Shown piece after piece: positions 1,973 to 33,559 of a stretch of DNA of 35,032 nucleotides. This stretch comes from an uncultured Alistipes sp. (lineage in GTDB: Bacteria > Bacteroidota > Bacteroidia > Bacteroidales > Rikenellaceae): contig CALUKK010000057.1 in the NCBI GenBank assembly GCA_944321205.1, forward strand, positions 1 through 35,032. Reading direction: 5' to 3'. Each line of letters begins with the position of its first letter. Within the stretch, counting starts at the first letter, position 1. Below the pieces are notes generated by a model that saw only the letters and a list, made by a program, of their open reading frames with translations, was not told the origin of the DNA and made no database searches. A program made the translations under genes and the position numbers.

Positions 1973-2030
1973 TTGGTAGTGGTTCCGGTCAACGGTATTG
2001 GTCTCGGAGGTTCGGATCATCAAAAAATTC

Positions 2031-2134
2031 GGGGGGGGGGAGCCGCAGGGTTCTGGGTCGCCGGGGACACCAGGGGTCGCCAAGGGTCGCCGAGGTTGCC
2101 AGGATCGCCGGGGTCGCCAAGGGTCGCCGGGATC
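2031..2134. repeat. Poly-G(10) tract and degenerate 9-10-bp minisatellite between two sulfatase genes
   Basis: The 160-bp gap between the sulfatases has ten consecutive G at 2031-2040 (C on the coding strand). From about 2056 to 2134 there are about eight units of the type GAYCCYGGC (minus strand), each 9 or 10 bp long. The block GACCCTTGGCGACCCC occurs twice. The array touches the stop codon of the upstream sulfatase. All three frames across it encode Gly/Asp/Pro-rich junk, and unit length varies by one base, so it is not constrained as coding sequence. It is transcribed between the two cistrons. Confidence 0.85.
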
Positions 2135-3650: not shown

Positions 3651-3658
3651 CAAAGTTA
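3651..3658 (-). promoter_or_regulatory. -7 box of the sulfatase operon promoter
   Basis: On the minus strand this reads TAACTTTG, matching the Bacteroidetes TAnnTTTG -7 element. No TTTG -33 box lies 19-21 bp upstream. The leader to the ATG at 3557 would be roughly 85-90 nt. The box sits 71 bp from the inner half-site of the operator at 3724-3765. Confidence 0.65.
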
Positions 3659-3723
3659 ACGGAATCTGCCATTCGCAGGCGCGGAGTTTGTTGCCAAAAT
3701 CCCGAATCGTGTGCAAAAGCCTT

Positions 3724-3765
3724 TCGATTTTGTAGAATCCAATCTCACTTTTGTCCCAAACGACC
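3724..3765 (-). promoter_or_regulatory. Operator-like 21-bp direct repeat serving the sulfatase unit
   Basis: On the minus strand the outer half is GTTTGGGACAAAAGTGA and the inner half GGATTCTACAAAATCGA. The ACAAAA cores are exactly 21 bp apart, about two helical turns. About 32 of 42 positions match the corresponding site at 20649-20690, in the same orientation to its promoter. The spacing is typical of AraC-type DNA-binding domains, as found in hybrid two-component regulators of PULs. Confidence 0.65.
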
Positions 3766-3790
3766 CTCCAAAGACCCTCCGTAGACCCGG

Positions 3791-3829
3791 ATTCGACAAA
3801 TTCAGCATCCGATTGCACAAAACTGATAG
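3791..3829 (+). promoter_or_regulatory. Operator-like 21-bp direct repeat serving the lyase unit
   Basis: On the plus strand the outer half is GGATTCGACAAATTCAG and the inner half CCGATTGCACAAAACTGA. ACAAAT starts at 3796 and ACAAAA at 3817, again a 21-bp period. The inner core ends 70 bp before the -7 box at 3892. This is the weakest of the three copies in sequence, but position and orientation match the others. Confidence 0.55.
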
Positions 3830-3891
3830 CGCTTTGCAGATTTTCCGGTGAGGATTGCGAGATTCTGATAAAGAGGCTCCGCACTTTGTCG

Positions 3892-3899
3892 TATCTTTG
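3892..3899 (+). promoter_or_regulatory. -7 box of the PL12-PL12-PL13 operon promoter
   Basis: TATCTTTG matches TAnnTTTG. No TTTG -33 element is present at the expected distance, which fits an activator-dependent promoter. The leader to the ATG at 3979 is about 72 nt. Confidence 0.65.
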
Positions 3900-3978
3900 T
3901 TCTTGCGCCGGGATGGCCTCCGACATCCGGACCCCGGCCCCAAACCCGACAACCGAAACCTCGAAATCTGCTATACCC

Positions 3979-6081
3979 ATGAAATCCGTCCAACTGTTCC
4001 TCACGCTGGGGTTGCTCGTATTCGGAACGGCTCTGCCCGTCAAAGCCCGCTCCGGGAATCCTGCCCGAAGCCGGGAAACCGGGCTTGCCGAAGTCCAAAG
4101 CCGGAAGGCCCCAGGACTCGAGGCCGCAACCGTCGCCGGCTCCATGACCGAACCTCCCGCCCTCGAGGCCGCAACCGTCGCCGACACGAGGGTCTTTGCC
4201 CTGCTCGACCTCTCGCGTCCGGGACTCGAACGCGTCGACAGCCTCCACGCCGCAGGCAACGACCCGGAAGCCGCCCGGGCCCTGCTCGCCTACTACCGTT
4301 CACGCACGGGAGTGGTCTGCCCCGAGGTCAACCTCGACTCGGTGACCATATCGCCCGACGAGCAGCGCTGGGCCGACGAAGCCCTCGAACACCGCTTCTT
4401 CGTCCACTCGGGCTACCAGCCCTCCTACTTCTACGGACTCGATATCGACTGGGAACTCTGGCCCGTTCATGACAATGAACTCCGCTGGCAGCTGCATCGC
4501 ATGAAGTGGTGGGTGCCGATGGGCAAGGCATACCGGATTTCGGGCAACGAACGATACGCCTCAGAGTGGTGTGCCCAATACCTCGACTGGATCCGCAAAA
4601 ACCCGCTGGTAAACTATGACGAAAAACGGATCGGTGAGTGGGAAACGGCTCACAACGTCTACTTCGCCTGGCGCCCCCTGGAGGTGAGCGACCGCCTGGA
4701 GTTCCAGATCCACCAGTTTCTCTATTTCCTGCCGGCCAGGGACTTCGACGGCGAATTCCTCCTCGAGTTCCTCGACAACTACCACCGGCATGCCGAACAC
4801 ATCATCCGGCACTTCTCCCCCTCGGGAAACCACCGTCTCTTCCAGGCTCAGCGACTCCTCGCGGCCGGAGCCTTCTTCCCCGAATTCCGCGATGCGGCGC
4901 GCTGGCGAAAAACCGGAGTCGAAATCCTCAACCGCGAAATCCTCAAGCAGGTCTACGACGACGGCATGCAGTACGAACTCGATCCGCATTATCATCTGGA
5001 AGCGATCAACATCTTCTTCAAGGCACTGCGGATGATGGATGCGAACGGATACCGCCGCGAATTCCCGGACTCGTATCTGGCCACCGTCGAGCGAATGATC
5101 GACGTCCACCTCAACTGCACCTTCCCCGACTACACCACCCCGCTCTTCAGCGACAACCGCGAGCAGGACAAGGCCCATCTGCTCGCCTCCTACGCCGAAT
5201 GGCTCAAGGTCTTCCCCGACAACGACTTCATCCGCTACTGCGCATCCCGGGGTGGCGAAGGCGCCTGTCCCGAATACCTCTCGCGGGCCTTCCGCACGTC
5301 GGGATTCTACGTCCTGCGCAACGGCTGGAGTCCCCAGGCCACGGTGCTGATCCTCAAGGCCGGCCCCCCGGCATTCTGGCACTGCCAGCCCGACAACGGG
5401 ACCTTCGAAATCTGGCATCGCGGACGGAACTTCTTCCCCGATTCGGGCTGCTACGTATACGGCGGCGACAGCGCCGTGCTGGCCCAACGCAACTGGTTCC
5501 GACAGACATCCGTCCACAACACCCTCACGCTCGAAGACCGGAATCTCGAAACAACGGATTCGAAATGCATCCGCTGGGTAACGGACGGAACGACCGACAT
5601 CCTCACCGTCGTGAACCCCTCCTACGAGGGACTCTCCCATCGCCGCACGGTGTGGTTCGTCGACCGCCGCTTCTTCGTCATCGAGGATCTGGCCTCGGGA
5701 AATGCCGCAGGTCGGGTCATCCTGCATTACAACCTGGCCGAAGGGACTCCGCTGGCCGATACGTCCGGACGAAGCGTTGAAACCCGGTATGAGGACGGAA
5801 ACAACCTTCTGCTGAAGGTCTTCGGAGCCGAAACCATGGAGCCCTGCCAGGGATGGGTCTCCTACCGCTACCGACAACGGAAGCCCAGACCCGCCTTCGC
5901 CTTCCCGGCCGAGAAAAAATTCGGCGAAAACGTGCGGTTCATCACCGTATTGGTGCCCTTCGACCACAACGTCGCACCCCACATCGAGGCTTCGTGGCAA
6001 CGCCGGAAAATCCGCGTGACGATCGACGGCCGAAAATACCTCCTGAAAACGTGTAACTACCCGATAACCGAAAAACACTGA
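3979..6081 (+). CDS. PL12 heparinase III-type lyase (heparan sulfate lyase), paralogue 1
   Basis: The protein has 700 residues from the ATG at 3979, chosen because it begins a proper signal peptide (MKSVQLFLTLGLLVFGTALPVKA). An unusually long linker follows (about residues 23-66) and contains an in-frame 15-residue duplication (LEAATVA twice). The helical toroid follows, with motifs shared with Pedobacter heparinase III: KDNELRWQLHR-like text, WRPLEVSDR, GNHRLFQAQR and YELDPHYHLEAI. The C-terminal beta-sandwich contains FWHCQPDNGTFE. N284, Y338 and H468 occupy the positions of the Asn/Tyr/His catalytic set of the family. Lyase action on low-sulfate regions gives 4,5-unsaturated uronic acid ends. 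It is first in a rightward operon, 6 bp before its paralogue. Probably periplasmic. Confidence 0.93.
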   Translation: MKSVQLFLTLGLLVFGTALPVKARSGNPARSRETGLAEVQSRKAPGLEAATVAGSMTEPPALEAATVADTRVFALLDLSRPGLERVDSLHAAGNDPEAARALLAYYRSRTGVVCPEVNLDSVTISPDEQRWADEALEHRFFVHSGYQPSYFYGLDIDWELWPVHDNELRWQLHRMKWWVPMGKAYRISGNERYASEWCAQYLDWIRKNPLVNYDEKRIGEWETAHNVYFAWRPLEVSDRLEFQIHQFLYFLPARDFDGEFLLEFLDNYHRHAEHIIRHFSPSGNHRLFQAQRLLAAGAFFPEFRDAARWRKTGVEILNREILKQVYDDGMQYELDPHYHLEAINIFFKALRMMDANGYRREFPDSYLATVERMIDVHLNCTFPDYTTPLFSDNREQDKAHLLASYAEWLKVFPDNDFIRYCASRGGEGACPEYLSRAFRTSGFYVLRNGWSPQATVLILKAGPPAFWHCQPDNGTFEIWHRGRNFFPDSGCYVYGGDSAVLAQRNWFRQTSVHNTLTLEDRNLETTDSKCIRWVTDGTTDILTVVNPSYEGLSHRRTVWFVDRRFFVIEDLASGNAAGRVILHYNLAEGTPLADTSGRSVETRYEDGNNLLLKVFGAETMEPCQGWVSYRYRQRKPRPAFAFPAEKKFGENVRFITVLVPFDHNVAPHIEASWQRRKIRVTIDGRKYLLKTCNYPITEKH

Positions 6082-6087
6082 ACCTGC

Positions 6088-8088
6088 ATGAAACAAATCC
6101 TTCTGGCACTGTGCGCCCTGCTGACGATCGCTCCGCACGCCGCAGCCGAACCCGAATCGGCTCTGGGAAACGAAAGATCCCTCTATGACCTGCTCGATCT
6201 CGACCGCCCGGAACTCAAAAACGTCAAAAAAGCCGTCGACAAAGGCAATATCGAAACCGCTGACAAAGAACTGCTCAAGTATTTCCGCAATCGAAAATCC
6301 ATCAGCCTGTTCGGTCTCGACCTCCAGCATGTCAAGGTCAGCAAACTCGAACAACGACAGGCCGATGAAGCCCTCGAACACAAATTCTACGCCCACAAAG
6401 GCTATCAACCCTCCTACTTCTATGGCGACGATATCAACTGGCGATACTGGCCCGTCAAGGACAACGAACTCCGCTGGCAACTGCACCGCCACTACTGGTT
6501 CATCCCCCTGGCCAAGTGTTACTACCTGACCCACGACAACCGTTATATCGATGCCTGGATCGACCAGTATACCGACTGGGTGAAGAAGAATCCCCTGGAC
6601 GGGGTCGAACAACTCCGCGCCGCAGGAGCCTCCGAGGAGCAAATCGCCGCCGAACGCGAGAACATCCGCTTCGCCTGGAGACCGATGGAGGCCGGACGTC
6701 GGCTGCAGGATCTGCTCACGGAGTTTGCCCTCACGATCCAGTCACCGCGCTTCACCCCCCAGTTCCTGAACCTCTTCCTGCGCACCTACCGCCAGCATGC
6801 CGACCATATCCTCCACAACTACTCGAAGCAGGGAAACCACCTGCTCTTCGAGGCTCAGCGCATGCTGTTTGCCGGCATCTTCTTCCCCGAATTCCGTGAA
6901 GCCGCCCAATGGCGACGCAGCGGTATCGAGATCCTCAACCGCGAAATCGGCGTACAGGTATACCCCGACGGCATGCAGTTCGAACTCGACTTCGGGTACC
7001 ACATCGCGGCCATCGACATCTTCCTCAAGGCCCTCGGAATGGCCCGCCTGAACGGATGCGAATCCGAATTCCCCGCAAGCTACATCGAAACCGTACACCG
7101 GATGACAACCGTGACGTGGAACCTCCTCTTCCCCGACTACTCCAACCCGATGTTCGGCGACACGAAGAGCCACGACAAAAGCTCGCTCAAAAAACAGTTC
7201 CGCAGCTGGAGCCGCGTCTTCCCCGACGACCGCCAGCTGGCCTGGTTCGCTTCCGAAGGATCCAAAGGCCAAAGGCCCGACTACACCTCGCGGGAGTTCC
7301 CGCAATCGGGATTCTACACCCTGCGTACCGGTTGGGACCCGGAGGCAACGGTCACCGTCGTCAAGGCCGGACCCCCGGCCTTCTGGCACAACCAACCCGA
7401 CAACGCAACCTTCGACTACTGGCGGCGCGGACGCAACTTCTTCCCCGATTCGGGCAGTTATGTCTATGGCGGCGACAGCTCCGTACTGGCGCAGCGGAAC
7501 TGGTTCCGACAGACCCGCGTACACAATACCCTGACGCTCGACAACCGAAACCTCGAAACCACCGATTCGAAACTCCTCAAGTGGGAAACATCCCCCGCAC
7601 AAACCCTGCTGATCACCGAAAATCCCTCCTACAAGGGCCTCACACACCGCCGGGCCCTCTTTGCCACGCAGGACGGTCTGCTCGTAATCATCGATCATGC
7701 TCTCGGACCGGATGCCGGAACCGTCGGCGTACACTTCAATCTCTGTCCCGGGCAGGTGACATTCGCCAAGGACGGTACGCTCAGCACCCGGTTCGACGAC
7801 GGAAACAACATCCGCATCAAAAGCTCGGCCTGCAAACCCCTCCGCATCCAGCAGGAGGAGGGATGGGTATCGTCGGCCTACCGCAAAAAGGAACAGCGTC
7901 CGGCCTATGCCGTCGAACTGGAAAAACAGACCGGCGAGAAGATCTGGGTGGTCACCGTCATCGCCCCCGAAGACCAGCAGCGAAGCGGCTCGATCGCCAT
8001 CGTCCCCGACCGCAGCTCGACTGCCGACCGCTTCCACGTCGCCATACGCGTCGGGGCCCGCACCTACGACTTCCGATACGAACTCTGA
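6088..8088 (+). CDS. PL12 heparinase III-type lyase, paralogue 2
   Basis: The protein has 666 residues, close to Pedobacter heparinase III (659). The signal peptide MKQILLALCALLTIAPHAAA is cleaved after about residue 20. The toroid domain carries WPVKDNELRWQLHRHYW, WRPMEAGRR and GNHLLFEAQR. The C-terminal domain has AFWHNQPDNATFDYW and QRNWFRQTRVHNTLTLD. N250, Y304 and H434 correspond to the Asn/Tyr/His set reported for heparinase III. Long stretches, for example around RNFFPDSG and NRNLETTDSK, are nearly identical to the upstream gene, so the pair arose by tandem duplication. Retention of both, with divergent linkers and loops, suggests different sulfation or chain-length preference (inference). 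Confidence 0.95.
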   Translation: MKQILLALCALLTIAPHAAAEPESALGNERSLYDLLDLDRPELKNVKKAVDKGNIETADKELLKYFRNRKSISLFGLDLQHVKVSKLEQRQADEALEHKFYAHKGYQPSYFYGDDINWRYWPVKDNELRWQLHRHYWFIPLAKCYYLTHDNRYIDAWIDQYTDWVKKNPLDGVEQLRAAGASEEQIAAERENIRFAWRPMEAGRRLQDLLTEFALTIQSPRFTPQFLNLFLRTYRQHADHILHNYSKQGNHLLFEAQRMLFAGIFFPEFREAAQWRRSGIEILNREIGVQVYPDGMQFELDFGYHIAAIDIFLKALGMARLNGCESEFPASYIETVHRMTTVTWNLLFPDYSNPMFGDTKSHDKSSLKKQFRSWSRVFPDDRQLAWFASEGSKGQRPDYTSREFPQSGFYTLRTGWDPEATVTVVKAGPPAFWHNQPDNATFDYWRRGRNFFPDSGSYVYGGDSSVLAQRNWFRQTRVHNTLTLDNRNLETTDSKLLKWETSPAQTLLITENPSYKGLTHRRALFATQDGLLVIIDHALGPDAGTVGVHFNLCPGQVTFAKDGTLSTRFDDGNNIRIKSSACKPLRIQQEEGWVSSAYRKKEQRPAYAVELEKQTGEKIWVVTVIAPEDQQRSGSIAIVPDRSSTADRFHVAIRVGARTYDFRYEL

Positions 8089-8098
8089 TCCTCAGACG

Positions 8099-9235
8099 AT
8101 GAAGACTCTCTGGATGGCAGGGCTGCTGCTGGCCGCTTCGCCGGCCGCAGCCCAAACCCCGGGGCTGGTATCCATCCCCGAAAGGGTCAACATTCAGGCC
8201 GATTCGGCCCGCCTTGATCAGGTGATCGACGGCCGATGGGTCGCCGTCGGAATCCCCAAAGAGGGGGCGTTGTGCCGCGACAGCTCCCGACCCTACGCCG
8301 GGAAACCCTCGTTCCGCTTCACGCTCGGCGTGCAGGACAACACCCTCAAAGGGTATGCCCCGGGCGAAACGAAGGGCCGCTCGGAGTTGGCCTACTGCTA
8401 TGCCACGGCCGCCGATTTCGCCAACCTGCCGCCGGAAACGTATGCCTCCGCACAAAAGACGAAGACCGTCTATCACTACGGCAAGGGAATCTGCCCGCAG
8501 GGATCCTCATGGCGCTATACCTTCGCCGTCTACATCCCCGCGGAGCTCGACAGCCTGGTCTCGACAATCTTCGCCCAATGGCACGGAATGCCCGACCGAA
8601 CGCTCGTCACGGCTCCCGACGGTCGCGTCACGAAACTGTCCGTGCGGGAGTTCGTGGCCATGAGCGACACGACAATCATCAAGAAGGAGAAGGTCTTCAG
8701 CGCCGTCGCCTCAACCGACGAAAACGGACAGGTCCGGCTCCAGGCCGGCAAACCCACAGGCTGGAAGGTCGAACAGGGTGGATACCCCCCGCTGGCATTC
8801 GGATTCTCCGGCGGATGGTTCTACATCAAGGCAAACTCCGACCGTCGCTGGTTCTCCGACAAGGACGACCGGTGCAACGCCAATCCCGAAAAGGTCGACG
8901 CGATGCAATCCGTACGTTCGGAGTTCAAGTGCTCGACGATCGCCTGCAAGATGCCATTCGCCGAGTTCCCGAAAAACCGCTGGGTCGAGTTTACCGTCGA
9001 CATTGTCTGGACCCGCTACGGAGGCGAAGCCCAGACCATCGTGAGGCCCGGACGTCTCAACGTCGAAATGCTCTGCGACGGCCTCTCGCAAAAACTGGTC
9101 GATAACCGCGAAATCCTCATCGGACGAAACGACGAAGACGGATACTACTTCAAATACGGAATCTATCGCGTTGGAGGCTGCACGAAACCGGTCAGCTACA
9201 ATCTCGCCGGATTCTCCCAAACACGGATCGACTGA
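8099..9235 (+). CDS. PL13 heparinase I (heparin lyase)
   Basis: The protein has 378 residues from the ATG at 8099, 10 bp after the PL12 stop. The signal peptide is MKTLWMAGLLLAASPAAAQ. The rest aligns along its whole length with Pedobacter heparinase I: RVNIQADSARLD, GRWVAVGI, GYAPGETKGRSEL, VYHYGKGICPQGSS, TIFAQWHGMPDRTLV, GWKVEQGGYPPLAFGFS, YIKANSDRRW and ILIGRNDEDGYYFKYGIYRVG. H162 in QWHG is the family's catalytic histidine, and C132 matches the conserved heparinase I cysteine. It cleaves highly sulfated heparin regions containing 2-O-sulfated iduronate, complementing the two PL12 enzymes. Last gene of its operon; a strong hairpin follows. Confidence 0.96.
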   Translation: MKTLWMAGLLLAASPAAAQTPGLVSIPERVNIQADSARLDQVIDGRWVAVGIPKEGALCRDSSRPYAGKPSFRFTLGVQDNTLKGYAPGETKGRSELAYCYATAADFANLPPETYASAQKTKTVYHYGKGICPQGSSWRYTFAVYIPAELDSLVSTIFAQWHGMPDRTLVTAPDGRVTKLSVREFVAMSDTTIIKKEKVFSAVASTDENGQVRLQAGKPTGWKVEQGGYPPLAFGFSGGWFYIKANSDRRWFSDKDDRCNANPEKVDAMQSVRSEFKCSTIACKMPFAEFPKNRWVEFTVDIVWTRYGGEAQTIVRPGRLNVEMLCDGLSQKLVDNREILIGRNDEDGYYFKYGIYRVGGCTKPVSYNLAGFSQTRID

Positions 9236-9297
9236 TCCCGCCGGGACCGGGAGCAGCTGAGCCCCGATCCCCGGATGGGCGGAATCTCCCGGATCAG

Positions 9298-9347
9298 TTC
9301 AGAAGAGATCCCGGTCGGAACAACTTCCGACCGGGATCTCTTCTGAA
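9298..9347. terminator. Bidirectional hairpin terminator between convergent PL13 and SusD genes
   Basis: Arms 9298-9320 and 9325-9347 are perfectly complementary over 23 bp, with a CAAC loop. It lies between two converging operons. There is no clear T-run on either strand, so it may act as a strong RNA 3' stabiliser or a factor-assisted terminator rather than a textbook intrinsic one. Confidence 0.8.
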
Positions 9348-9358
9348 TCCGGAAAGTC

Positions 9359-11002
9359 CTATTTCCCCCAACCCGGATTCTGCTTGCACAACTTCATCAG
9401 GTCAAGATCCCGCTGCGGAATGGGGAGCAACTCGTGACGACCCTCAATCGTGTAGCGCGCTACCGTATAGTTCGCATCCGGCATCCAGTCCACCAACTCC
9501 TGCGACGTGCGGCGAATCGATTCATAGTAGATGCCCCAACGAATCAGATCCTGCTTGCGATGCCCCTCGAAACAGAGCTCGTATGCCCGCTCCTTGCGGA
9601 TCGCCTCGCGCAACTCTTCTCGCGACAGCCCGTACGACAGATCGTGTTCCGTATCCTTGAACCCCCGGCGCCGAACCGCATTCACCGCATCTACAGCATC
9701 CATAATCGATCCCCCCGATTCATTCAACGCCTCGGCAAACAACAGCAGAACGTCCGAATAGCGCAGAATATACCAGTTGACGTTCGACTTGTCGTTGTGA
9801 ACCATGTAGTTCGTCGAACTGACATACTTCTCCGTATCCCACTTGCCCGGCGTAAAAAGCTGACAGGCCTTGTTGCCCGTCTTGTCCAACGGCGTACTCC
9901 CGGACGACAGATACGGAACCGGCGTACGACCGTTATTCTTGTCGTACTTGTAGTCGGCTATCGACAACGGCAGACGCGGATCGTTGTGCGTCCACCACTC
10001 CCGGGTGAAACTGTAAACCACCTTCCAGTTCGCGGCATTGCGCCCCCGCTGCCCATCAATCATCTCCGCCGACACGCCGTTCCATTTCCCGATACGACCG
10101 GCCGTCAGATCGCTGTCCAGACTCGTCGGCGAATAGAACGAAACCTCGATCAGACTCTCTCCGGCATCCCAGATGCCGTTGCACGTATTGCGCCATACCG
10201 TCTCATAGTCGGGGATCAAGCGATGCTTCCCCGACTCGACAACCTGACGTGCCACCTTCACGGCCTCACCCCATTTCGTCTCGTCCCGGACAGGATAACC
10301 CGCCCACGTACAGTAAACCTTCGCCAGCAGCCCCAGGGCCGACCCCTTCGACATACGATAGGCATTCGTCGCCCGCTGCGTATCGTCCACTGCCCACGGA
10401 AGAACTTCCGCAGCGTATTTCAAATCCTCCTCAATGAAGGCATACACATCCCGCGGATCCGACTGCACATACTCCGTAGCACTCTTCTCCGCCTCCGAGG
10501 TCGTCTTGACCAACACGATGTTCCCGTACCAGCGCACCAACTCGAAATAAAACAGGGCTCGCAACGCCCGGGCTTCTCCCAGATAGATCGTCCCCAGCTC
10601 CTGATTCTTCCCGCTCCACGACCCGATGCGCGAAGTGACCGTCTCGATGAAATCGTTCGCATCGTAAATCGACGAATAGAGCTTCTGCCACGTCTCCATG
10701 ATCTCCGACGTCGACGGATTGTGTGAATTGGTCGGAATCTCCCGAACCCCTGACGTCGAATTCCCCTCGCACTGGGCTATGTCCGACGATATGGTGAACA
10801 ACAGTGACAGATGATACGAATACATGTACTCGTTGGTCAAATCCTTGTAGATACCCATCAGAACCGTCTCGGCCTCCGAGGCATCGTTCAGATAATTCTC
10901 CTTGCCGATCTCCGTGTATGACTCCTCCTCCAACAGATCGGAGCACGATACCCCCAAAAACATACCCAGCGTCGACATCCCGTATAATAAGATCTTTTTC
11001 AT
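9359..11002 (-). CDS. SusD-like surface glycan-binding lipoprotein of the heparin PUL
   Basis: The protein has 547 residues from the ATG at 11002. The lipoprotein signal MKKILLYGMSTLGMFLGVSC gives Cys20, followed by an acidic stretch (SDLLEEE) consistent with surface export. RagB/SusD features include YLNDASEAETVLMGIYKDLTN near the N-terminus and LGEARALRALFYFELVRWYGNI. The C-terminal section has LRYSDVLLLFAEALNESGG, VNAVRRRGF and RKERAYELCFEGHRKQDLIRWG. It would cap the SusC channel and capture heparin oligosaccharides. It is last in the leftward operon, 31 bp after SusC. Confidence 0.95.
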   Translation of the reverse strand: MKKILLYGMSTLGMFLGVSCSDLLEEESYTEIGKENYLNDASEAETVLMGIYKDLTNEYMYSYHLSLLFTISSDIAQCEGNSTSGVREIPTNSHNPSTSEIMETWQKLYSSIYDANDFIETVTSRIGSWSGKNQELGTIYLGEARALRALFYFELVRWYGNIVLVKTTSEAEKSATEYVQSDPRDVYAFIEEDLKYAAEVLPWAVDDTQRATNAYRMSKGSALGLLAKVYCTWAGYPVRDETKWGEAVKVARQVVESGKHRLIPDYETVWRNTCNGIWDAGESLIEVSFYSPTSLDSDLTAGRIGKWNGVSAEMIDGQRGRNAANWKVVYSFTREWWTHNDPRLPLSIADYKYDKNNGRTPVPYLSSGSTPLDKTGNKACQLFTPGKWDTEKYVSSTNYMVHNDKSNVNWYILRYSDVLLLFAEALNESGGSIMDAVDAVNAVRRRGFKDTEHDLSYGLSREELREAIRKERAYELCFEGHRKQDLIRWGIYYESIRRTSQELVDWMPDANYTVARYTIEGRHELLPIPQRDLDLMKLCKQNPGWGK

Positions 11003-11033
11003 AGATAGTTCGTTTGCTTTTGTTGGTCTCACT

Positions 11034-14000: not shown

Positions 14001-14192
14001 GCCTTTCAGGTCCGTCGAGACCCCCTGCGTGGTGCCCTTCACCACGACGTTGGCTCCGATGGCCGGCTGTCCGTTCTCGTCGACAACCGTTCCCGTTATC
14101 TTGTTCTGGGCGGTGGCGACGAAGGCCACGACAAGAGCCAGAAGTGTCAGAAACCCTCTCAGCCCGAATGCCCGTTTTTTCATATATCTCAT
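11034..14192 (-). CDS. SusC-like TonB-dependent transporter of the heparin PUL
   Basis: The protein has 1052 residues from 14192; an internal ATG at 14183 (MKKRAFGLRG) is an equally good start. A signal peptide ends near FVATAQ. A carboxypeptidase-like regulatory domain follows (ITGTVVDENGQPAIGANVVVKGTTQGV...). The plug contains DEVVVVGYGAQKRSDLTGAIATVSSEDV and IRGIGSVNGETTPLYIVDGFQVDNIDYL. A long 22-strand-type barrel ends in YTVGLDLTF. It imports oligosaccharides across the outer membrane with TonB energy. It sits 21 bp downstream of the SGBP gene and is paired with the SusD gene. Confidence 0.97.
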   Translation of the reverse strand: MRYMKKRAFGLRGFLTLLALVVAFVATAQNKITGTVVDENGQPAIGANVVVKGTTQGVSTDLKGNYSLSVKQGAVLVISYLGYKTQEISVGTQTTIDVKLEPEANVMDEVVVVGYGAQKRSDLTGAIATVSSEDVEGFKSGSVMEALGGQIAGVQITASDGTPGAGFDIKIRGIGSVNGETTPLYIVDGFQVDNIDYLSNSDIASIEVLKDASSSAIYGSRAANGVVMVTTKSGKKGRPVVTYNGSASYREISKILDLLTPYEFVKLQVEAWPDKFNTTYYRSGEDEYGIPYRYQSLDDYIGVGGIDWQRETFRPTWSQDHNVSISGGSERTTYAFSFSDFLENGIFRNSAFNKITAKMRVSHKVSKLLRVDATVNYAFTDKRGMGTSGDNGRLNMLGQILRARPTGGLRMTDEELLNSAIDPLELESSESLAQVNPIKQAESVTNTTKTEMWSGNVALNFDLGRGWSFRTAGSYNTTNRRYYQFYYEGSKEAFRNGQTPYGATQMTRDVRWTNYNYLTYKYKKKNGHAFDVMLGQETSFRGTEYVKGQSTDFPFDNLGNNNLGLGATPSQVTSSRSDNMLISFFARGNYNYKDRYLFTATVRADGSTVFSKNNKWGYFPSFSAAWRISEERFMKNQAVISNLKLRAGWGMVGNDRITNYLSLTLYSQGKYGYGNNLITVLTPKQLPNEDLKWEASQSTNLGVDVGLFRNRLNITADLFIKDTKDLLMESNKAYVSGFESQWRNVGKIRNKGLELAINSTNLSTKSGFTWTTDFNISFIHNELLSLADGSVSMGRNADWNSEYTNDDYVALVGQSLGLIYGYAFDGVYQSSDFEVDAATGKMHLRPGVVDMSKHYTEGDFSPGVVKYKDIDGDGEITSNDRTVIGNGTPKWYGGITNTFSYKGIDLSFMFQFNYGNDVYNATRMYASQTLDQRANMMSEIADRWTPTNASNRVPRQDGYVKNELYSRFIEDGSFLRMKSLTLGYTLPQHVTRKFWVSKLRIYVSGQNLFVVTGYSGYDPEVSMRASSPMTPSLDWGAYPRSKVYTVGLDLTF

Positions 14193-14213
14193 AACTGATT
14201 TCAGTCTCTTAGG

Positions 14214-16373
14214 TTAAAAATTCTCGTCGAACCAGACGGCCATGTGGATCGCGTTCTTCGTCCCCGAAGCATCCAGCTCCGCAAAGGTGCCCGTCGTCGT
14301 ATAGGGCGCCTGGAAGATCAGAACGCCATTGGCATAGGCTCCGTCAAGCTGCCATTTGCCGCCGGCAATGTACATCTTGAAGTCATTGCCGCAATCGATG
14401 TAGCCGAGTTTGTTCGTCAGAGACGACGACACCGCAGGAGTCTGCAGCTCGTAATAGGACATCGGCTCCCGACTCCCCGCCGTGGGTGACGACTCCCATG
14501 TATAGGTCTCCCACATCCGGTAGATGAACGTGCTCTTGACCGGTGCATCCAATTTGCCGCTCTGGTGCGAGGCGGGCCCCCCGAAGTTGTAATAGTACAG
14601 GTCCCGCTTGAGCGTGATCATGAACCGCGACTTGTCGCCCTCGATCGTCGGAGCCGCCGAGTATCCGCCCGTACGCGGATTCACCCGGAACACCATCGGA
14701 CTGTACATCACCACCTTGTCAATCGCCGACAGAACCCGCACGAAAAGATACGTCGTGCGCGTAACGGCCGTCTCGCCCGAACCGATCGTCGCATCGATCC
14801 GTACGATGGCAAACTGTCCGACCCGATCGTTGCGGAAGGTCAGGTGAACCGTGCCGTCATCCGCCACATAGGTCAGCGACGCCTTCGTCCGCAGAGGATT
14901 GTCATGGATCCGGGTCATCTTGAAGGTCACGGCCCGGTTGTTGAAGTCCTCATGAGCCACCGGAATCGCCACGGTCGTATTGTCGCTTGACGTCCCCTGC
15001 ATGTCGAAAACATACTGGTCGGCCTGCGTCTGCCAATCCTCCAGACCCAGGTTGTTGCCGTAACGGAACGTCGTGAACATGTTCGGATTCGCGGCAACGG
15101 TCAACTGCAGCGTCGTCTCCGAAGATCCCTTCACATTCGTCACCGTCACCGGAATCGTATAGACTCCCGGATCGGCCATGATCTTCGACAGCGAGGTGAT
15201 CTCTCCCGTCGCGGCATCGATCTGCAACTGTCCGGCCAGTGCCGCGGGAACCTCGCCCAGGGCAAACGTCACCTCATCCCCGATGAAACCATCCGATTTC
15301 GGCGCCTTGAACGTCGTGCCGGCAATCACCTCAACGGGAGAATAGGTGAAGCTCCCGGGATCGATCGGCGTGATGAACGCTATGACGGTCAGCGTATAGG
15401 CATTCTCGAAATCCGCCGAACCGTAACGGTTCGTAACCGTCAGATCTACCGTGTAGGTGGAACCCACCGAAAGCCCATTGCCTTCGGCTACGGTGAGAAC
15501 GCCCGTGGATGGATCGATCCGGATCAGATCCGTCTCGGCACTCTCGGCGCCGGGGTGGACCGCCTTGATGGCCCACGTCACCTCATCGGGTGAACCCTTG
15601 AGCGTCGGCGTGGCACTCGTGAACGACCGGTCGGCCTCCATGCGTCCCGCCGACGGCGTATAGGAGACACTCAGCGGAAGACTCGTAATCCGGGCCGTGA
15701 GAACCTGCTCGAAGGTCTTCGTGCCGGCATAGGTCTCGATCTGCACCGACAGCGGATAGTTCCCCGGAAGAATCTCGCCCTCATACTCCGGATCAAGCGT
15801 GATAACTCCCTCGTCCGAAATGGTGAAATACGCGAAACCCTCCTCCTGAAGCAGCGAATAGCGCCGTATCGCAACCGACTCCCCGACGGGCGTCACCGTG
15901 ACCTGCGCCTCACTCGTCGCCAGATCCCCGTAGGGTATCGTCAGCGTCGAAGCACTCAACTCAATCTCCGCCGGCGTCGAGGGAGACATCTCAACCACGA
16001 AAATATCCTTGAACGTATAGTGTCCTCCTCCCGCCTGGCACGCTATCGTCAGCTTGTAGATGCCCGGCTCCAGTCCCGAGGTGTTCGATATGCTGACCAT
16101 TCCCGTATCGGCATTGATCGAGAAACTGTCACTGGTCATCGCCTCGCCGTCGAACGTGATGCCCGCTATGGAAAAACTCCCCGGCGTAGGACCATGGTAG
16201 GTAGGAACTCCCGACACGAAGTTCATCGAGGGCCCGATATCCACAACCGTCGGATAGTAGAGTTCCAGCGCTTCCGACGTCTCATCGTCCTTACACGACG
16301 TGAGAAAAACCGTGCTGATCAGACCCAGCAGCCCCAACACGGCAAGGCTTATATGGTGAAACCGTATTTTCAT
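14214..16373 (-). CDS. Surface glycan-binding lipoprotein (SGBP) with repeated Ig/cadherin-like domains
   Basis: The protein has 719 residues from the ATG at 16373. The signal ends in FLTSC (Cys27), and KDDE right after the cysteine matches the Bacteroidetes lipoprotein surface-export signal. The body consists of several beta-sandwich modules that repeat phrases such as GxYxLTI/VTVTNxxG and an 'initial value, then range' pattern (SINADTGMVSISNTSGLEPGIYKLTI, RIDPSTGVLTVAEGNGLSVGSTYTVDLTV, QIDAATGEITSLSKIMADPGVYTIPVTV). A distinct C-terminal domain follows, about 220 residues long. Position and architecture match BT4661, the heparin-binding SGBP of the B. thetaiotaomicron PUL. Direct binding to heparin is inferred. 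Confidence 0.85.
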   Translation of the reverse strand: MKIRFHHISLAVLGLLGLISTVFLTSCKDDETSEALELYYPTVVDIGPSMNFVSGVPTYHGPTPGSFSIAGITFDGEAMTSDSFSINADTGMVSISNTSGLEPGIYKLTIACQAGGGHYTFKDIFVVEMSPSTPAEIELSASTLTIPYGDLATSEAQVTVTPVGESVAIRRYSLLQEEGFAYFTISDEGVITLDPEYEGEILPGNYPLSVQIETYAGTKTFEQVLTARITSLPLSVSYTPSAGRMEADRSFTSATPTLKGSPDEVTWAIKAVHPGAESAETDLIRIDPSTGVLTVAEGNGLSVGSTYTVDLTVTNRYGSADFENAYTLTVIAFITPIDPGSFTYSPVEVIAGTTFKAPKSDGFIGDEVTFALGEVPAALAGQLQIDAATGEITSLSKIMADPGVYTIPVTVTNVKGSSETTLQLTVAANPNMFTTFRYGNNLGLEDWQTQADQYVFDMQGTSSDNTTVAIPVAHEDFNNRAVTFKMTRIHDNPLRTKASLTYVADDGTVHLTFRNDRVGQFAIVRIDATIGSGETAVTRTTYLFVRVLSAIDKVVMYSPMVFRVNPRTGGYSAAPTIEGDKSRFMITLKRDLYYYNFGGPASHQSGKLDAPVKSTFIYRMWETYTWESSPTAGSREPMSYYELQTPAVSSSLTNKLGYIDCGNDFKMYIAGGKWQLDGAYANGVLIFQAPYTTTGTFAELDASGTKNAIHMAVWFDENF

Positions 16374-16393
16374 ATCTGTTTGCAGTTTTAGGT

Positions 16394-19312
16394 TTACAGC
16401 GTATACGACAGTTCGTAGCTCTTGCCGTTGACCCGAACCTTCAGCGTGGCGCCCGTCTGAGACCACTCTCCCGGATCAATCTCGATCGGCGATGCGGTCG
16501 CGGCATCCTGCGTCGGAAGAAGAACCGTCACATAGCGCACGGCGGCATCCGAGGCACTCTTCTCGATGTTGAGCTGGTAGGCCTTCCGACTGATCTCCGG
16601 ATTGGATGCCGTCACGATGTCGTAGGCCAGGAAGCCCTGCTTCTCGGCATAGCTGGAAGGCTTGTCCGAAACCGTCCGGACAAGCAGGTTGTTGCCGTCG
16701 GAAAAGTCCGTGTGGAACCCGAAATCCGCCGCATCAAGCACAACCTCGGAGTCCTCCCCGGCCGTGACGTTGAAGTTCAGATTCACGGTCCCCTCGGCCG
16801 TTCCGTATCCCTCGTCGAGAATCACGTAGAAACTGTCATTCACCAGAAAAACCGAACGCCGGTGCGTCAAATCCGAATAGGAGGGATTCTCCAAGACAAG
16901 CAACTCGTACGAATAGCTGGAATTCGCCCTCGTCTGCTGCTTCAGAAGCCGACCCGCACTCGACACATTCCGCCCGTCGAGCGTCAGCGTATTGTGGGCC
17001 GTCGTGGCGGCATAGCGGGAACGGATGGCATTCGACTCCGAAGACCCTCCATAGGATCCGGATCCCGAATCGGGGAAGAAATTCCGTCCCTTGACCCACA
17101 GTTCAAAGGTGTTGTTGTCCGACTGCCGGTGCCACTGATCCCCCTCCACCGAGGGCCGGTTCTGCAACACCATCATCTTGTCCTGCATCGTCCATCCCGT
17201 ACGCATCACGTAATATCCCCCGTCGGAGAAACTCTTCACGCGCGTCTCGGGCATCGTCCCCTGTTTCCCTTCGGTCGCCAGCCAGGCCAGCTGCGCCTGG
17301 TCCGGAAAGAGAGTCTGGTAATTCGTCAGATTGCGGATCAACACGCTCTTGGTCCACGATGCGGCCCGCGTGTCGGCCATGTTCGGCACCGAATAGTCCG
17401 GATAGATCATGTTCACCACCACGTCGATCATCTTCTGCATCGACGAAAGATAGTTCGCCGGAAAATAACCCGACCCCTTGTTGAGCTGTCCCACCAGCAA
17501 CGCCGTACGGAAATCCTCGATACTCGAAATGTGGTAGGACAGGTCCCCGTCCTTGAGCCACCCGTCATTGAAATACTGCTCCGTCATCTGCCGACTCAAT
17601 ACCTCCGGTCCGTTCACCCGCCACGTCGCGGAATTCTTCAACTCGGGAAAAAGCATCCCGGCAAAGGTCACGGCCCGCGACTGCGTGATCAGATGGTTCG
17701 ATGAGGCCGAATAGTTCTGCATGATATGGTTCACCTGCTCGTCCAGATGCGTGAGCACCGTCGACAGCCATGACCCCGTCATCGTCGTCGAACCCTGGTA
17801 ATACTCCAGAAGCCCGCACTGATCGATCACCCGCGCCGCAACGTCCAACGGCCGCCAGTTCGTCGAATTCGTCACATCAGTCCCCTGTTCGGGTTTGGGA
17901 TTCTGTCGGAGCCAGTCGCCGTAGACCTCCATCCAGTTCTGGACGTATCGCTCGTCGCGAGTCGTGTTGTAGACCTTGCCCTGCATGATCATCCACTGGT
18001 GCCGGTGCAACTGGTAGCGCTGCTCCTGACTCCCGTCGCTGTGCTTCGTCCAGTCGATCCCGTCGCCCGCATCGTTCATGTACGAATAGGGCACATCCGT
18101 GCCAACCTGCGTGTCGAAGTAGTTCTTCACATAGAACCGATAGCCATTCTCCCGGAATGCGTAGTCCGCCCACCGTTTCTCACTCTCCGTGGCCGCATCC
18201 TCCGCATAGTTCACCCCGGGATTCAACCCGTGGGCCCGGGACCGGAAACTCTGCAACAACTCCTCCTGGGCCAACCGGTAATCCCCGGTCTGATAGGCCG
18301 TCGCAACCTTCGCCAAACTCCCGTATGTGAGATCGAGAATCTCGAAAACCGACGGGTCCAACCCCTCATTCATCGAGACCGAACCGCTTGCGACCCACTT
18401 CTTCGCATCCTTCATCTCCGGAAAGATCGTCCCAGCACGGTATACCGCATAGCTCTCCTGAGAAAGATCCGCTCCGGACTCCGCATAGTGATTCATCACG
18501 TGCGAAACCTGCTCCACCAGATTCGAAAGATACTTCGACAACAACTGTGGCGTAAAGTTCCTCGACTGCATGAAGTAATAGATCAGATCACACTGATCCG
18601 CAATACGGTACGAAACATCAACCGGCCGCCACGCATAGAGCACTTCCCGAACCTTCTCGGGTTGGCTCCCCGGATCGGCCGTGAAATCGTAATCCCCGTC
18701 GGGAAGCGGAAAGTTCTTGAGCCAGTCCTCATAGACCGTAATCCACGACTCCACGTACGTCTCATCGAGCGTCGTGCGGTAGGCCTTGCCCTGCGGAAGC
18801 ATCCACGACAGACGATGCAGACGATAACGCTCCTCACTCTCGGCCGTAGAACGCGCCTTCCAGTTGATTTTCGTCGTGTTCTGGTAGGAATAGGGCTTCT
18901 CTCCATCAAGATAGCCCTCAACATAAAAACGATAGCCGTCCGTCTGGTCTCCCGAACCCGGAAGCGCCCAATCCGCACGGGCCTGCTCCTCGGGCGTGAT
19001 CGTCGGGGAGATCAGATCAACGTTGCCGTTGACCAGCGTCCGCGTACGGTAGTAATTCAACAAGGCCTGGGCCGCCAGATAATACTGCCCCGACTCGTAG
19101 TAGGCCTTGACCGGAGCCAGCTCCGCAAGCTCCAGATCCAATGCCTCGAAAACCCGCGAATCGATCACACTGTTCCCGGGAATCGGTGTCTCGGTTCCCT
19201 CCGTATCCTGATTCCCCTGCGAGCCCATCACGTCGTCTCCCAGACACCCCGAAAAAAGGGCTGGAAGCACCACTAGACACAGCTGTGTAAGCCTGGTAAA
19301 GATTCGTCTCAT
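16394..19312 (-). CDS. Large surface PL12-type heparin/heparan sulfate lyase with duplicated N-terminal toroid
   Basis: The protein has 972 residues from the ATG at 19312, about 300 longer than a usual PL12 enzyme. The lipoprotein signal ends at Cys23 (LFSGC), followed by LGDD, an acidic surface-export-like motif. Residues about 51-309 and 319-600 are two copies of the heparinase N-terminal helical domain; the starts VFEALDLELAELAPVKAYYESGQYYLA and VFEILDLTYGSLAKVATAYQTGDYRLA line up. Copy 1 has GADLSQESY where catalytic copies have GNH, so it is probably inactive. Copy 2 keeps N539 and Y593, and the C-terminal sandwich keeps H728 (QWHRQSDNNTFELW). It likely makes the first cuts in surface-bound polysaccharide, as BT4662 does (context inference). 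Confidence 0.9.
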   Translation of the reverse strand: MRRIFTRLTQLCLVVLPALFSGCLGDDVMGSQGNQDTEGTETPIPGNSVIDSRVFEALDLELAELAPVKAYYESGQYYLAAQALLNYYRTRTLVNGNVDLISPTITPEEQARADWALPGSGDQTDGYRFYVEGYLDGEKPYSYQNTTKINWKARSTAESEERYRLHRLSWMLPQGKAYRTTLDETYVESWITVYEDWLKNFPLPDGDYDFTADPGSQPEKVREVLYAWRPVDVSYRIADQCDLIYYFMQSRNFTPQLLSKYLSNLVEQVSHVMNHYAESGADLSQESYAVYRAGTIFPEMKDAKKWVASGSVSMNEGLDPSVFEILDLTYGSLAKVATAYQTGDYRLAQEELLQSFRSRAHGLNPGVNYAEDAATESEKRWADYAFRENGYRFYVKNYFDTQVGTDVPYSYMNDAGDGIDWTKHSDGSQEQRYQLHRHQWMIMQGKVYNTTRDERYVQNWMEVYGDWLRQNPKPEQGTDVTNSTNWRPLDVAARVIDQCGLLEYYQGSTTMTGSWLSTVLTHLDEQVNHIMQNYSASSNHLITQSRAVTFAGMLFPELKNSATWRVNGPEVLSRQMTEQYFNDGWLKDGDLSYHISSIEDFRTALLVGQLNKGSGYFPANYLSSMQKMIDVVVNMIYPDYSVPNMADTRAASWTKSVLIRNLTNYQTLFPDQAQLAWLATEGKQGTMPETRVKSFSDGGYYVMRTGWTMQDKMMVLQNRPSVEGDQWHRQSDNNTFELWVKGRNFFPDSGSGSYGGSSESNAIRSRYAATTAHNTLTLDGRNVSSAGRLLKQQTRANSSYSYELLVLENPSYSDLTHRRSVFLVNDSFYVILDEGYGTAEGTVNLNFNVTAGEDSEVVLDAADFGFHTDFSDGNNLLVRTVSDKPSSYAEKQGFLAYDIVTASNPEISRKAYQLNIEKSASDAAVRYVTVLLPTQDAATASPIEIDPGEWSQTGATLKVRVNGKSYELSYTL

Positions 19313-19341
19313 ATGGTAGTTGGTTTTAGGTTGTGCGCGGT

Positions 19342-20538
19342 TCAAAGTTGCGCGGGAGCAACCCCTCGCAACGAAAGATAGCGTTCGATTGCCTCCAGAT
19401 AGTAATAGTCCGCATAGTTGATCGGTGTATCCACCTCGCTGTGCGCCGGAAGGTGCCCCACACTGTGCATCAGAAGAAAGCCTCCGTTGGTCCCGACACC
19501 GGCCAGATAGGCTTCCGTCGAGAGGGTCAGAAGCATCCGCTCGGCCCGGTCATAATAACGGCGACCCTCCGCCTCTGGAACCAGCGTCGATAACTCGAAA
19601 AGCGCCGAACTGATCACCGCTGCCGCCGAAGCATCCCGCGGTGCATCCGGAATCTCCGGAGCATCGTAATCCCAATACGGAATCAGATCCTCCGGCGTAC
19701 GCGGATGATTCATGATGAACGAGGCTATGCGACGAGCCTGCTCCAGATATCGCTCCTCTCCCGTCTCCCGGTAGCACATCGTATAACCGTAAAGCCCCCA
19801 TGCCTGACCCCGGGCCCAGGCCGACGTGTCGGAATATCCCTGGAACGTCCCGCGACTCTCGACCGTCCCGTCATCGTTATAGCTTACAACATGATACGAA
19901 CTCCCGTCCTCCCGAAAATGGTTCTGGAGCGTGCGATCCGCATGCCGAATCGCGATATCCCGATATTTCGGATCGCCCGTCTGCTTCGAGGCCCAGAAGA
20001 GCATCTCCAGATTCATCATGTTGTCGATGATAACCGGGTAGTTCCAATCCCCGAAGTCCCACGAACGGATCAGTCCTACGGTCGAATCACAGCGCGATAT
20101 GAGACTGTTCGCAGCCTCGACGATCACCTCCGCCGAATGGGAATCATGCAGCGTCCGCAGCTGCTGCCCATAGCTGCAATAGACCATGAAACCCAGATCA
20201 TGCGTCCCTTTATAATATTGTATGCCTTCGAGCCGGGAGGTGAACTTCTCGGCTTCCGCCCGCAGATGTTCGTCGCCAGTCAGTCGATAGGCCTCCCACA
20301 GCGTCCCCGGGAAAAAGCCGCTCGTCCAGTCTCTGGCCTCCACGACCTTGTATTTCGGAGACAGCGACCGCGGGAATCCGGGCAGCGAATCGAACTCCGC
20401 AGCCAGATGAGTCAGTTGCGTACGCGTCACCTCCAGTGCGTGCTTCACACTGGCAAGTTTCGGATCGGGCTCCGTCGTGCAGGAACCCAGCATCAACAGG
20501 GAAAAGAGCCCCGAAAAAGTGAGGAGGTTTTTTCTCAT
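19342..20538 (-). CDS. GH88 unsaturated glucuronyl hydrolase lipoprotein
   Basis: The protein has 398 residues. The lipoprotein signal is MRKNLLTFSGLFSLLMLGSC (Cys20). The sequence after it (TTEPDPK) lacks an acidic export tag, so it is probably periplasmic. The alpha/alpha-barrel contains RDWTSGFFPGTLWEAY, GTHDLGFMVYCSYG with D114, and PVIIDNMMNLEML with D172; these are the two catalytic aspartates of the family. YSDTSAWARGQAWGLYGY is another conserved segment. It hydrates and releases the 4,5-unsaturated uronic acid left at the non-reducing end by the lyases. It is first in the five-gene leftward operon GH88-PL12-SGBP-SusC-SusD, whose gaps are 20-31 bp. Confidence 0.96.
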   Translation of the reverse strand: MRKNLLTFSGLFSLLMLGSCTTEPDPKLASVKHALEVTRTQLTHLAAEFDSLPGFPRSLSPKYKVVEARDWTSGFFPGTLWEAYRLTGDEHLRAEAEKFTSRLEGIQYYKGTHDLGFMVYCSYGQQLRTLHDSHSAEVIVEAANSLISRCDSTVGLIRSWDFGDWNYPVIIDNMMNLEMLFWASKQTGDPKYRDIAIRHADRTLQNHFREDGSSYHVVSYNDDGTVESRGTFQGYSDTSAWARGQAWGLYGYTMCYRETGEERYLEQARRIASFIMNHPRTPEDLIPYWDYDAPEIPDAPRDASAAAVISSALFELSTLVPEAEGRRYYDRAERMLLTLSTEAYLAGVGTNGGFLLMHSVGHLPAHSEVDTPINYADYYYLEAIERYLSLRGVAPAQL

Positions 20539-20576
20539 GAATGGTTCAGGTTTTGGTTTTGGTTGTTTGTTGTATA

Positions 20577-20584
20577 CAAAAGTA
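20577..20584 (-). promoter_or_regulatory. -7 box of the GH88-PL12-SGBP-SusC-SusD operon promoter
   Basis: The minus strand reads TACTTTTG, matching TAnnTTTG. There is no TTTG at the -33 distance. The leader to the ATG at 20538 is about 35 nt. The upstream end of the box is 70 bp from the inner half-site of the operator at 20649-20690. Confidence 0.7.
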
Positions 20585-20648
20585 CCGATAAGCTGGCGCC
20601 AAGACCCCGAGTTTTGAAGAATTGATTTTCAAAACCGCTCAAATAACC

Positions 20649-20690
20649 TTCGTTTTTGTCCAATACAATATCGTTTTTGTCCAAAACCCG
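20649..20690 (-). promoter_or_regulatory. Operator-like 21-bp direct repeat serving the SusC/D operon
   Basis: On the minus strand the halves read TTTTGGACAAAAACGA and TATTGGACAAAAACGA, a nearly perfect direct repeat with a period of exactly 21 bp. It is the best copy of a motif found three times in the window, each time ahead of a PUL unit. The arrangement fits an AraC-type activator contacting one face of the DNA. Confidence 0.75.
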
Positions 20691-21622: not shown

Positions 21623-21625
21623 GTT

Positions 21626-22411: not shown

Positions 22412-22416
22412 AGTTG

Positions 22417-22444
22417 CAAAGGTAAGTATTTTCAAGAAAATACT
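22417..22444 (-). promoter_or_regulatory. Promoter of the MBL-SDR unit with a 20-bp palindrome in its spacer
   Basis: The minus strand has TACCTTTG (22424-22417), a perfect TAnnTTTG box, ending only 5 bp before the ATG at 22411. The transcript should therefore have almost no leader. Directly upstream, 22425-22444 is an inverted repeat, AGTATTTTC/GAAAATACT around a 2-bp centre. It fills exactly the 20 bp where the -7/-33 spacer would be. Confidence 0.65.
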
Positions 22445-22562
22445 CGCATCTCCCGCCCAAAATCATCGACCCGAAGGCCCCTCACCGACAGGACTTCCCG
22501 CCATAGACTCCGATGCGGGTCCCGTCCGGAAGACATCGTAACGGCGGCCTCGTCTCGAAAAG

Positions 22563-22593
22563 TTGCAGAAACGGGATTTTTTCATTATTTTTA
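22563..22593 (+). promoter_or_regulatory. Probable promoter of the GH97 gene
   Basis: TTG at 22563-22565 and TATTTTTA at 22586-22593 are separated by 20 bp, the usual -33/-7 spacing of Bacteroidetes promoters. The -7 box differs from TAnnTTTG at its last base. The leader would be about 28 nt. Confidence 0.5.
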
Positions 22594-22627
22594 CAAACCC
22601 GTAACGCGAACCTCAACCCAAACCCAA

Positions 22628-28228: not shown

Positions 28229-28240
28229 CGTCTGTCGCTT

Positions 28241-29254: not shown

Positions 29255-29287
29255 GGTGCTACTTTTGCCGTTGGTTCGTTTTCGATA

Positions 29288-30601: not shown

Positions 30602-30610
30602 ATCTCCAAG

Positions 30611-33542: not shown

Positions 33543-33559
33543 TATAAAACCAAGCCACC

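Follow-up and report, generated by a model that had tools for sequence, protein, structure and literature searches.

At the araBAD operon of Escherichia coli, AraC recruits RNA polymerase from two direct half-sites (I1-I2) with a spacing of 21 bp, of which the downstream one abuts the -35 region. In gut Bacteroides, hybrid two-component systems (HTCSs) are a major class of glycan-use regulators (PMC11253607). Direct-repeat motifs of 21 bp on average were predicted in 2013 for 16 HTCSs, among them the heparin regulator BT4663, whose HTCS_Hep motif was placed before BT4662, BT4675 and BT4658, and 20 HTCSs of B. thetaiotaomicron had no predictable DNA motif at that time (Ravcheev 2013, PMC3878776). 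The response-regulator fragment of BT4663 binds the bt4662 promoter in a phosphorylation-dependent manner in an electrophoretic mobility shift assay (EMSA; PMC11253607), and unsaturated disaccharides are ligands of BT4663 (PMC9067506). The Bacteroidetes sigma-ABfr promoter consists of TAnnTTTG at -7 and TTTG near -33 (PMC7366714), and predicted BT0366 sites have been drawn together with -7 boxes in a supplementary figure (PMC5061871). Here we describe a heparin/heparan-sulfate polysaccharide utilization locus (PUL) on contig CALUKK010000057.1 of an uncultured Alistipes sp. (assembly GCA_944321205.1), in which three promoters carry predicted operators of four half-sites that stand in a fixed register before the -7 box and are probably read by a BT4663-like HTCS.

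The window, by which we mean the whole stretch analyzed, is the complete contig C57 of 35,032 bp, from a genome of 2.75 Mb that is broken into 171 contigs and estimated to be 87.5% complete. Judged by the order of its genes, the PUL would comprise three transcription units: unit A, leftward, with two sulfatases; unit B, rightward, with lyases; and unit C, leftward, with GH88, HepC, a surface glycan-binding protein (SGBP), SusC and SusD. At all three PUL promoters ACAAA-N16-ACAAA is followed by exactly 70 nt and then by the sigma-ABfr -7 box TAnnTTTG; the T of the box lies 96 nt downstream of the first A in the leading ACAAA. Each site thus has a direct repeat of two conserved half-sites 21 bp apart, as in an HTCS operator. 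The first-pass annotation had located the three pairs and the three boxes correctly; the fixed distance that it claimed also stands, and its values of 71, 70 and 70 bp differ from the identical 70 nt through counting. Within the window there are three ACAAA pairs at a spacing of 21 and at most one at every other spacing from 12 to 39. In the genome as a whole, a pair with a box at a gap of 55-75 nt occurs only at the three PUL promoters (reversed control, 0). A search with N70 and at most two mismatches gave one extra match against 2 in the control, and a shift of the gap to 71 gave no exact match and 2 with two mismatches (control, 1). Taken alone, the pair ACAAA-N16-ACAAA is nothing unusual (8 occurrences genome-wide, 11 in the control); what carries significance is the combination of pair, box and distance.

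This combination is conserved. We searched 268 genomes of the family with the HepC protein (matched in 22 at E 1e-50) and with the spaced pattern at gaps of 60-75 (63 genomes with a match), and tallied the gaps by hand from match coordinates. Among same-genus genomes, the 14 with a lyase match, our own included, hold 41 matches of the pattern, 39 of them at a gap of 70 (37) or 71 (2), as against 8 of 50 in the 246 genomes without a lyase match, where about 6 would be expected if the 16 gaps were equiprobable. The remaining five matches are in four lyase-bearing genomes of another genus, g20, and in the g20 genomes G233, G234 and G237 the 70-nt gap lies upstream of the SGBP gene. Across the window and 34 stretches from relatives, all 42 ACAAA pairs (42/42) have a box at 96 (40) or 97 (2) nt from the first A; the pairs were collected without requiring a -7 box, and most of the 34 stretches had been chosen for holding a match. 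The array is present at the three operons in relatives and thus upstream of orthologous operons, as an HTCS operator should be. Promoter B of G009 and promoter C of G014 differ from an exact pair by a single base in the second core, and their arrays keep the register; promoter C of G167, a genome of short contigs, is not in this set. None of the 42 promoters in the window and relatives has TTTG at -27..-20 and one has TTG there, in line with the earlier claim that these promoters lack a -33 box.

Chance repeats in A/T-rich intergenic DNA could account for the bare pair, which is no more frequent than in the control. They hardly come into question for the three promoters, to which pair, box and distance together are unique and at which the gap is held in lyase-bearing relatives and dispersed elsewhere. 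On the conserved register and on uniqueness within the genome, chance was ruled out. The first-pass annotation had likewise considered that chance could hardly explain the fixed distance, and had named scatter of the spaced motif across the genome and lack of conservation at orthologous PULs as grounds for rejection; neither was encountered, and conservation extends beyond the genus to other families.

Read in blocks of 21 nt, the 70-nt gap contains two further half-sites, weaker or degenerate, in the same 21-bp phase. Measured from the T of the -7 box, the four cores would then lie head to tail at -96, -75, -54 and -33, with a best half-site consensus of about TTG(G/C)ACAAA(A/T)TCGA. A position weight matrix (PWM) was trained on the first two half-sites of all promoter types but one and used to score 70 offsets (30-99) in the type left out. 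The offsets of the third and fourth half-sites, 42 and 63, ranked 1 and 3 in type A, 1 and 2 in type B, and 2 and 1 in type C. Conservation per column is 1.4-1.8 bits in the half-site cores (1.0 in the fourth core of B) and 0.5-1.2 bits in the stretch directly before the -7 box. Where spacing departs from the norm, the last half-site tends to hold its place. In L076 and L079, which have the box at 97 and a step of 22, a displacement of the fourth half-site by one base restores its distance of 33 to the box; the two shifts are perhaps one event. L106, L108, L111, L121 and L128 begin their arrays at 95 and have a step of 20 between the pairs, which leaves the distance of 33 from last half-site to box unchanged. 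An exception is promoter B of L072, where no fourth half-site stands out clearly at 63. G196, from a different genus, combines a weak distal pair with a proximal pair that is a perfect 15-bp repeat, which indicates that strength can shift between the pairs with the register kept.

The same register was found in other families. A contig scan with a lyase alignment yielded 71 named loci, of which 15 from Alistipes were excluded. The 56 used contain 89 TAnnTTTG boxes upstream of PUL genes, with 815 other boxes of the same loci as control; related loci are not independent, and boxes were picked by the -7 consensus alone. Before the 89 boxes ACA[ATG][ATG] is commonest at offsets 33 (15), 54 (8), 75 (8), 74 (7), 95 (7) and 96 (6), and any other offset has at most 3. 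After removal of near-duplicates (80 boxes) these six offsets hold 43 matches against 8 expected. At least three of four half-sites are in register at 10 of the 89 boxes (L106, L107, L108, L109, L111, L118, two in L121, L128 and L155), as against 4 of 815 other boxes, one of which, in L116, has a clean -75/-54/-33 run; each of eight shifted registers gave at least three half-sites at 0 of 89. The in-register loci include Bacteroides xylanisolvens, whose heparin promoters have ACA cores in this register, Phocaeicola, Rikenellaceae and unclassified Bacteroidales.

These data bear on a simpler explanation, that the distal 21-bp pair alone is the operator and acts from afar, the 70-nt gap being constant through common descent. 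In Alistipes the distal pair is indeed the best conserved and the nearest to consensus, and HTCS motifs were described as two half-sites by Ravcheev 2013 (PMC3878776). It is nevertheless improbable: the PWM recovers 42 and 63 in three Alistipes types, offsets 33 and 54 are the most frequent in other families, G196 has its strong repeat in the proximal position, and promoters near other HTCS genes have a repeat at -54/-33. For the PWM offsets and the registers in other families, the operator of two half-sites 70 bp off the promoter, as the first-pass annotation had it, was set aside for one of four. The pair it described stands but was incomplete, two in-phase half-sites in the gap having been overlooked; the evidence favours the distal ACAAA pair being the outer half of a four-half-site array that abuts the -33 region.

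To see the register in HTCS promoters generally, we took 49 stretches around HTCS genes of two Bacteroides genomes, G268 (B. xylanisolvens; 29 of 29 Y_Y_Y matches) and G269 (B. congonensis; 20 of 40). From these came 154 TAnnTTTG boxes, non-redundant and directly upstream of genes, which were subjected to a motif-free self-similarity scan at every lag and offset. All fifteen top cells have lag 21 and place the proximal core at 24-39. With both heparin loci dropped (145 boxes), z is 3.5 at offset 33 and lag 21, a value reached by 0 of 1000 rotations, and 21 boxes spread over 19 of 45 loci match at at least 7 of 12 positions. Control boxes from 20 random G268 stretches more than 45 kb from HTCS matches (80 boxes) gave z 1.4, 331 of 1000 rotations and 2 boxes, and a first control, 797 boxes elsewhere in the same loci, had no peak at this offset and lag (z 1.7). 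In single genomes the observed value was reached by 1 (G268) and 4 (G269) of 1000 rotations, and in G268 alone some lag-10 cells equal the lag-21 cells. At lag 21, offsets 54 and 75 reach z 1.2 only; generality is therefore supported for the -54/-33 pair and not for the four-site form. The explicit pattern ACA-N18-ACA-N30-TAnnTTTG has 4 matches in G268 (control 2) and 6 in G269 (control 1); our own genome and G013 have a single match each, at promoter A. By blast, one of the ten Bacteroides matches precedes an HTCS gene and two precede SusC-like genes; five precede unclassified open reading frames (ORFs) and two have no ORF after them.

The -54/-33 pair thus looks general for HTCS promoters, and the additional distal pair is apparent in the heparin system only. 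There is perhaps an even chance that HTCS promoters across Bacteroidales share a 21-bp repeat at -54/-33 in place of the -33 element, to which the heparin promoters, and perhaps others, add an in-phase distal pair to form a cooperative two-dimer switch. If this were true, register alone would locate HTCS target promoters without a known half-site sequence. The control boxes of L176-L224, which are not assigned to gene starts, have a weak self-similarity at lag 21; offsets 57-87 hold their eight strongest cells, with z no higher than 2.6. A four-site-like array precedes an HTCS gene itself in L164 (B. congonensis), which would fit self-activation. Separately, two of the Bacteroides promoters matched by the explicit pattern, in L165 and L170, contain inverted repeats, GATAGGTG..CACCTATC and GATAGGCG..CGCCTATC, with the right arm overlapping the -7 box. 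Changes between the two copies are matched from arm to arm, and the repeat could be the site of a second regulator.

A-runs every two helical turns can give intrinsic DNA curvature, and the A-runs here, each 21 bp apart, could curve the DNA in this way. That the repeats are phased A-tracts bending the promoter and not protein sites is very unlikely all the same. Conservation extends beyond the A-run to the C of ACA and the flanking TTG, many third and fourth half-sites have no A-run, repeat sequences differ among HTCS loci at the same register, and the signal is absent from the 80 random promoters of G268.

As for the regulator, our genome has 11 Y_Y_Y-domain (HTCS-like) matches. The one on contig C2 (L046:4120-8154) has Reg_prop, Y_Y_Y, HisKA, HATPase, receiver and HTH_18 domains. 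Its best match in the PDB is 4a2l, which we take to be BT4663, at 582 bits, followed by the next at 276; L055, the other of the two own HTCSs compared among the 11, scores 292 bits against 4a2l. In eight same-genus relatives the HTCS adjacent to the PUL is the orthologue of the C2 protein (69-80% identical), and in G196 the PUL-adjacent HTCS is 39% identical to it; the stretches covered in the other relatives contain no HTCS. In all nine relatives the HTCS belongs to the BT4663-like group and is co-located with SusC/D genes, as expected for the regulator of such a locus. The order of the genes directly before the HTCS, one of them ROK-kinase-like by eye, is shared between C2 and G151. Of 10 PUL-linked orthologues, 9 have the identical recognition segment SRSNLHLK (L121 differs), as against 0 of 9 own paralogues, a comparison that left out the truncated own HTCS L047. 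We conclude that the BT4663-like HTCS on contig C2 is likely the regulator of the PUL.

A different protein might read the array, either a stand-alone AraC protein or a global CRP-like regulator. The assignment of the sites to an HTCS is sequence-based, and the AraC-type proteins of the genome were listed in part, which leaves some room for this idea; we nonetheless regard it as quite unlikely, given that the PUL-linked HTCSs of nine relatives are all of one group and that BT4663 binds the bt4662 promoter (PMC11253607). In addition, the consensus of the regulator BT4338, as quoted in PMC11501099, is an inverted repeat, wwwTATGTTnTAnAACATAwww, unlike the direct repeat here.

Several observations weigh against the reading of four half-sites bound by the HTCS of the PUL. 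The HTCS of our own genome is on a different contig and is tied to the PUL by synteny only. In promoter type D, from three g20 genomes, offsets 42 and 63 rank 5 and 31 of 70, and the best offsets are 41 and 62, which would put the last half-site 34 and not 33 from the box. Half-sites three and four are weak in types B and C, many of them without ACA, and the spacers between half-sites are also well conserved, at 1.1-1.7 bits per column versus 1.0-1.8 in the cores. Control boxes in other families also peak at offset 33 (19 of 815), far more weakly than the test set (15 of 89). L125 has an ACAAA pair with its box at 87, unlike the others, and there was no clear array at the boxes examined in the lyase loci L104, L113, L087 and L088, or at the PL12a box examined in L109; no box was recorded for L105, L116 or the L107 lyases, nor in two stretches before genes on our contig C2.

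On balance we hold with good confidence that the arrays are the operators of the PUL's own BT4663-like HTCS, made up of four half-sites as two 21-bp pairs in a fixed register before the sigma-ABfr -7 box. The earlier proposal that one AraC-type HTCS controls lyases, sulfatases and SusC/D together is well supported by the array at the three operons, the linkage of a BT4663-like HTCS, the orthologue in our own genome, and the published 21-bp spacing. In the model that we propose, the periplasmic sensor would bind unsaturated heparin disaccharides, leading to phosphorylation of the HTCS, whose AraC-type domains would then occupy one face of the helix as two dimers lying side by side. The first dimer would be anchored in the Alistipes promoters by the strong distal pair and would assist the second in binding the weaker proximal pair. 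As the last half-site abuts the -33 region, the bound activator could substitute for the missing -33 element and recruit RNA polymerase. The array, its register and conservation, the absent -33 box and the HTCS linkage come from sequence, and the 21-bp repeats, BT4663 binding and ligands from the literature; we infer from these that the HTCS binds here, with two dimers, cooperativity and polymerase contact.

Table 1. Predicted operators, -7 boxes and genes of the heparin/heparan-sulfate PUL in the window
Feature	Position	Strand	Remarks
Predicted operator A, sulfatase operon	3682..3758	-	cores start at 3754, 3733, 3712, 3691, leftward
-7 box TAACTTTG, promoter A	3651..3658	-	33 bp past fourth core
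Predicted operator B, lyase operon	3792..3868	+	cores 3796, 3817, 3838, 3859
-7 box TATCTTTG, promoter B	3892..3899	+	
Predicted operator C, GH88-HepC-SGBP-SusC-SusD operon	20608..20684	-	cores 20680, 20659, 20638, 20617
-7 box TACTTTTG, promoter C	20577..20584	-	
Sulfatase, operon A	299..2161	-	nearest solved structure N-acetylglucosamine-6-sulfatase
Sulfatase with SGSH_C domain, operon A gene 1	2133..3557	-	
Heparinase II/III-type lyase, operon B gene 1	3980..6081	+	start by eye; listed ORF from 3751
Heparinase II/III-type lyase, operon B	6088..8088	+	
Heparin lyase I relative, operon B	7907..9235	+	listed ORF; real start probably further inside
SusD-like protein, operon C	9359..11032	-	
SusC-like TonB-dependent transporter, operon C	11034..14192	-	
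BT4661-like SGBP, operon C	14214..16466	-	
HepC-family heparin-sulfate lyase, operon C	16394..19345	-	
GH88 unsaturated glucuronyl hydrolase family, operon C gene 1	19342..20538	-	

Coordinates of the three promoters and of the PUL genes are collected in Table 1. In operator B half-site four is weak, without an ACA core, and in operator C cores three and four are degenerate. The divergent operators A and B lie back to back, and the distance between their first cores is 42 bp in 11 of the 13 genomes, against 32 bp in L072 and L074; these spacings correspond to about four and three helical turns and hint at contact between the two arrays. The nearest named relatives of the HepC lyase are from Alistipes metagenome-assembled genomes. 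Beyond the PUL, the window encodes a retaining alpha-galactosidase of family GH97 (21476-24616), whose domains start well inside the listed ORF, and a metallo-beta-lactamase-superfamily hydrolase (21626-22435) between the PUL and the GH97 gene. A tripartite efflux operon occupies 25088-31264, with an RND pump, a membrane-fusion protein, an outer-membrane protein and a TetR-type regulator, and the rest (31635-35032) consists of a POT-family peptide transporter and the start of a CBM48/alpha-amylase-type gene that runs off the contig.

A fixed register provides a testable model of activation and a route to the targets of HTCSs without a prior motif, as well as a design rule for glycan-inducible promoters in gut commensals. 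Our literature search, with subscription papers and supplements outside its scope, found no statement of a fixed distance from HTCS site to promoter or of four half-sites, and the accessible parts of PMC12125979, PMC11501099, PMC10994844, PMC6874557, PMC10766802 and PMC11697453 contain nothing on the position of HTCS sites. What appears to be new here, then, is the arrangement of four half-sites in a fixed register with the last one at the position of a -33 element.

The first-pass annotation knew of no published operator of this form for heparin PULs, which overlooked the direct-repeat motif HTCS_Hep predicted in 2013 (PMC3878776). As in the HTCS_Hep regulon, a direct repeat of about 21 bp and a regulator of the same kind are found here, with the motif before several operons and with heparin lyases, sulfatases, GH88 and SusC/D among the genes. 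Compared by description, the HTCS_Hep motif has two half-sites in Bacteroides with no distance to a -7 box given in the part of the source available, whereas here four stand in fixed register in another genus. BT4663 and bt4662 (PMC11253607) offer a parallel, with an HTCS of the group proposed here and a heparin PUL promoter as its target; that binding was seen by EMSA on a whole promoter fragment, with half-sites and their position undissected in the accessible text, and the findings on the Alistipes system all come from sequence comparison. With the sigma-ABfr promoter all three promoters share the -7 box but not the -33 TTTG (0/42). The geometry of AraC at I1-I2 recurs in the 21-bp direct repeat, in the downstream half-site abutting a promoter element (cores -54 and -33, the latter at the -33/-35 region), and in the AraC-type DNA-binding domain; unlike I1-I2, the Alistipes operators would have four half-sites, a sigma-ABfr promoter without a -33 box and, as we propose, a membrane-bound, phosphorylated activator.

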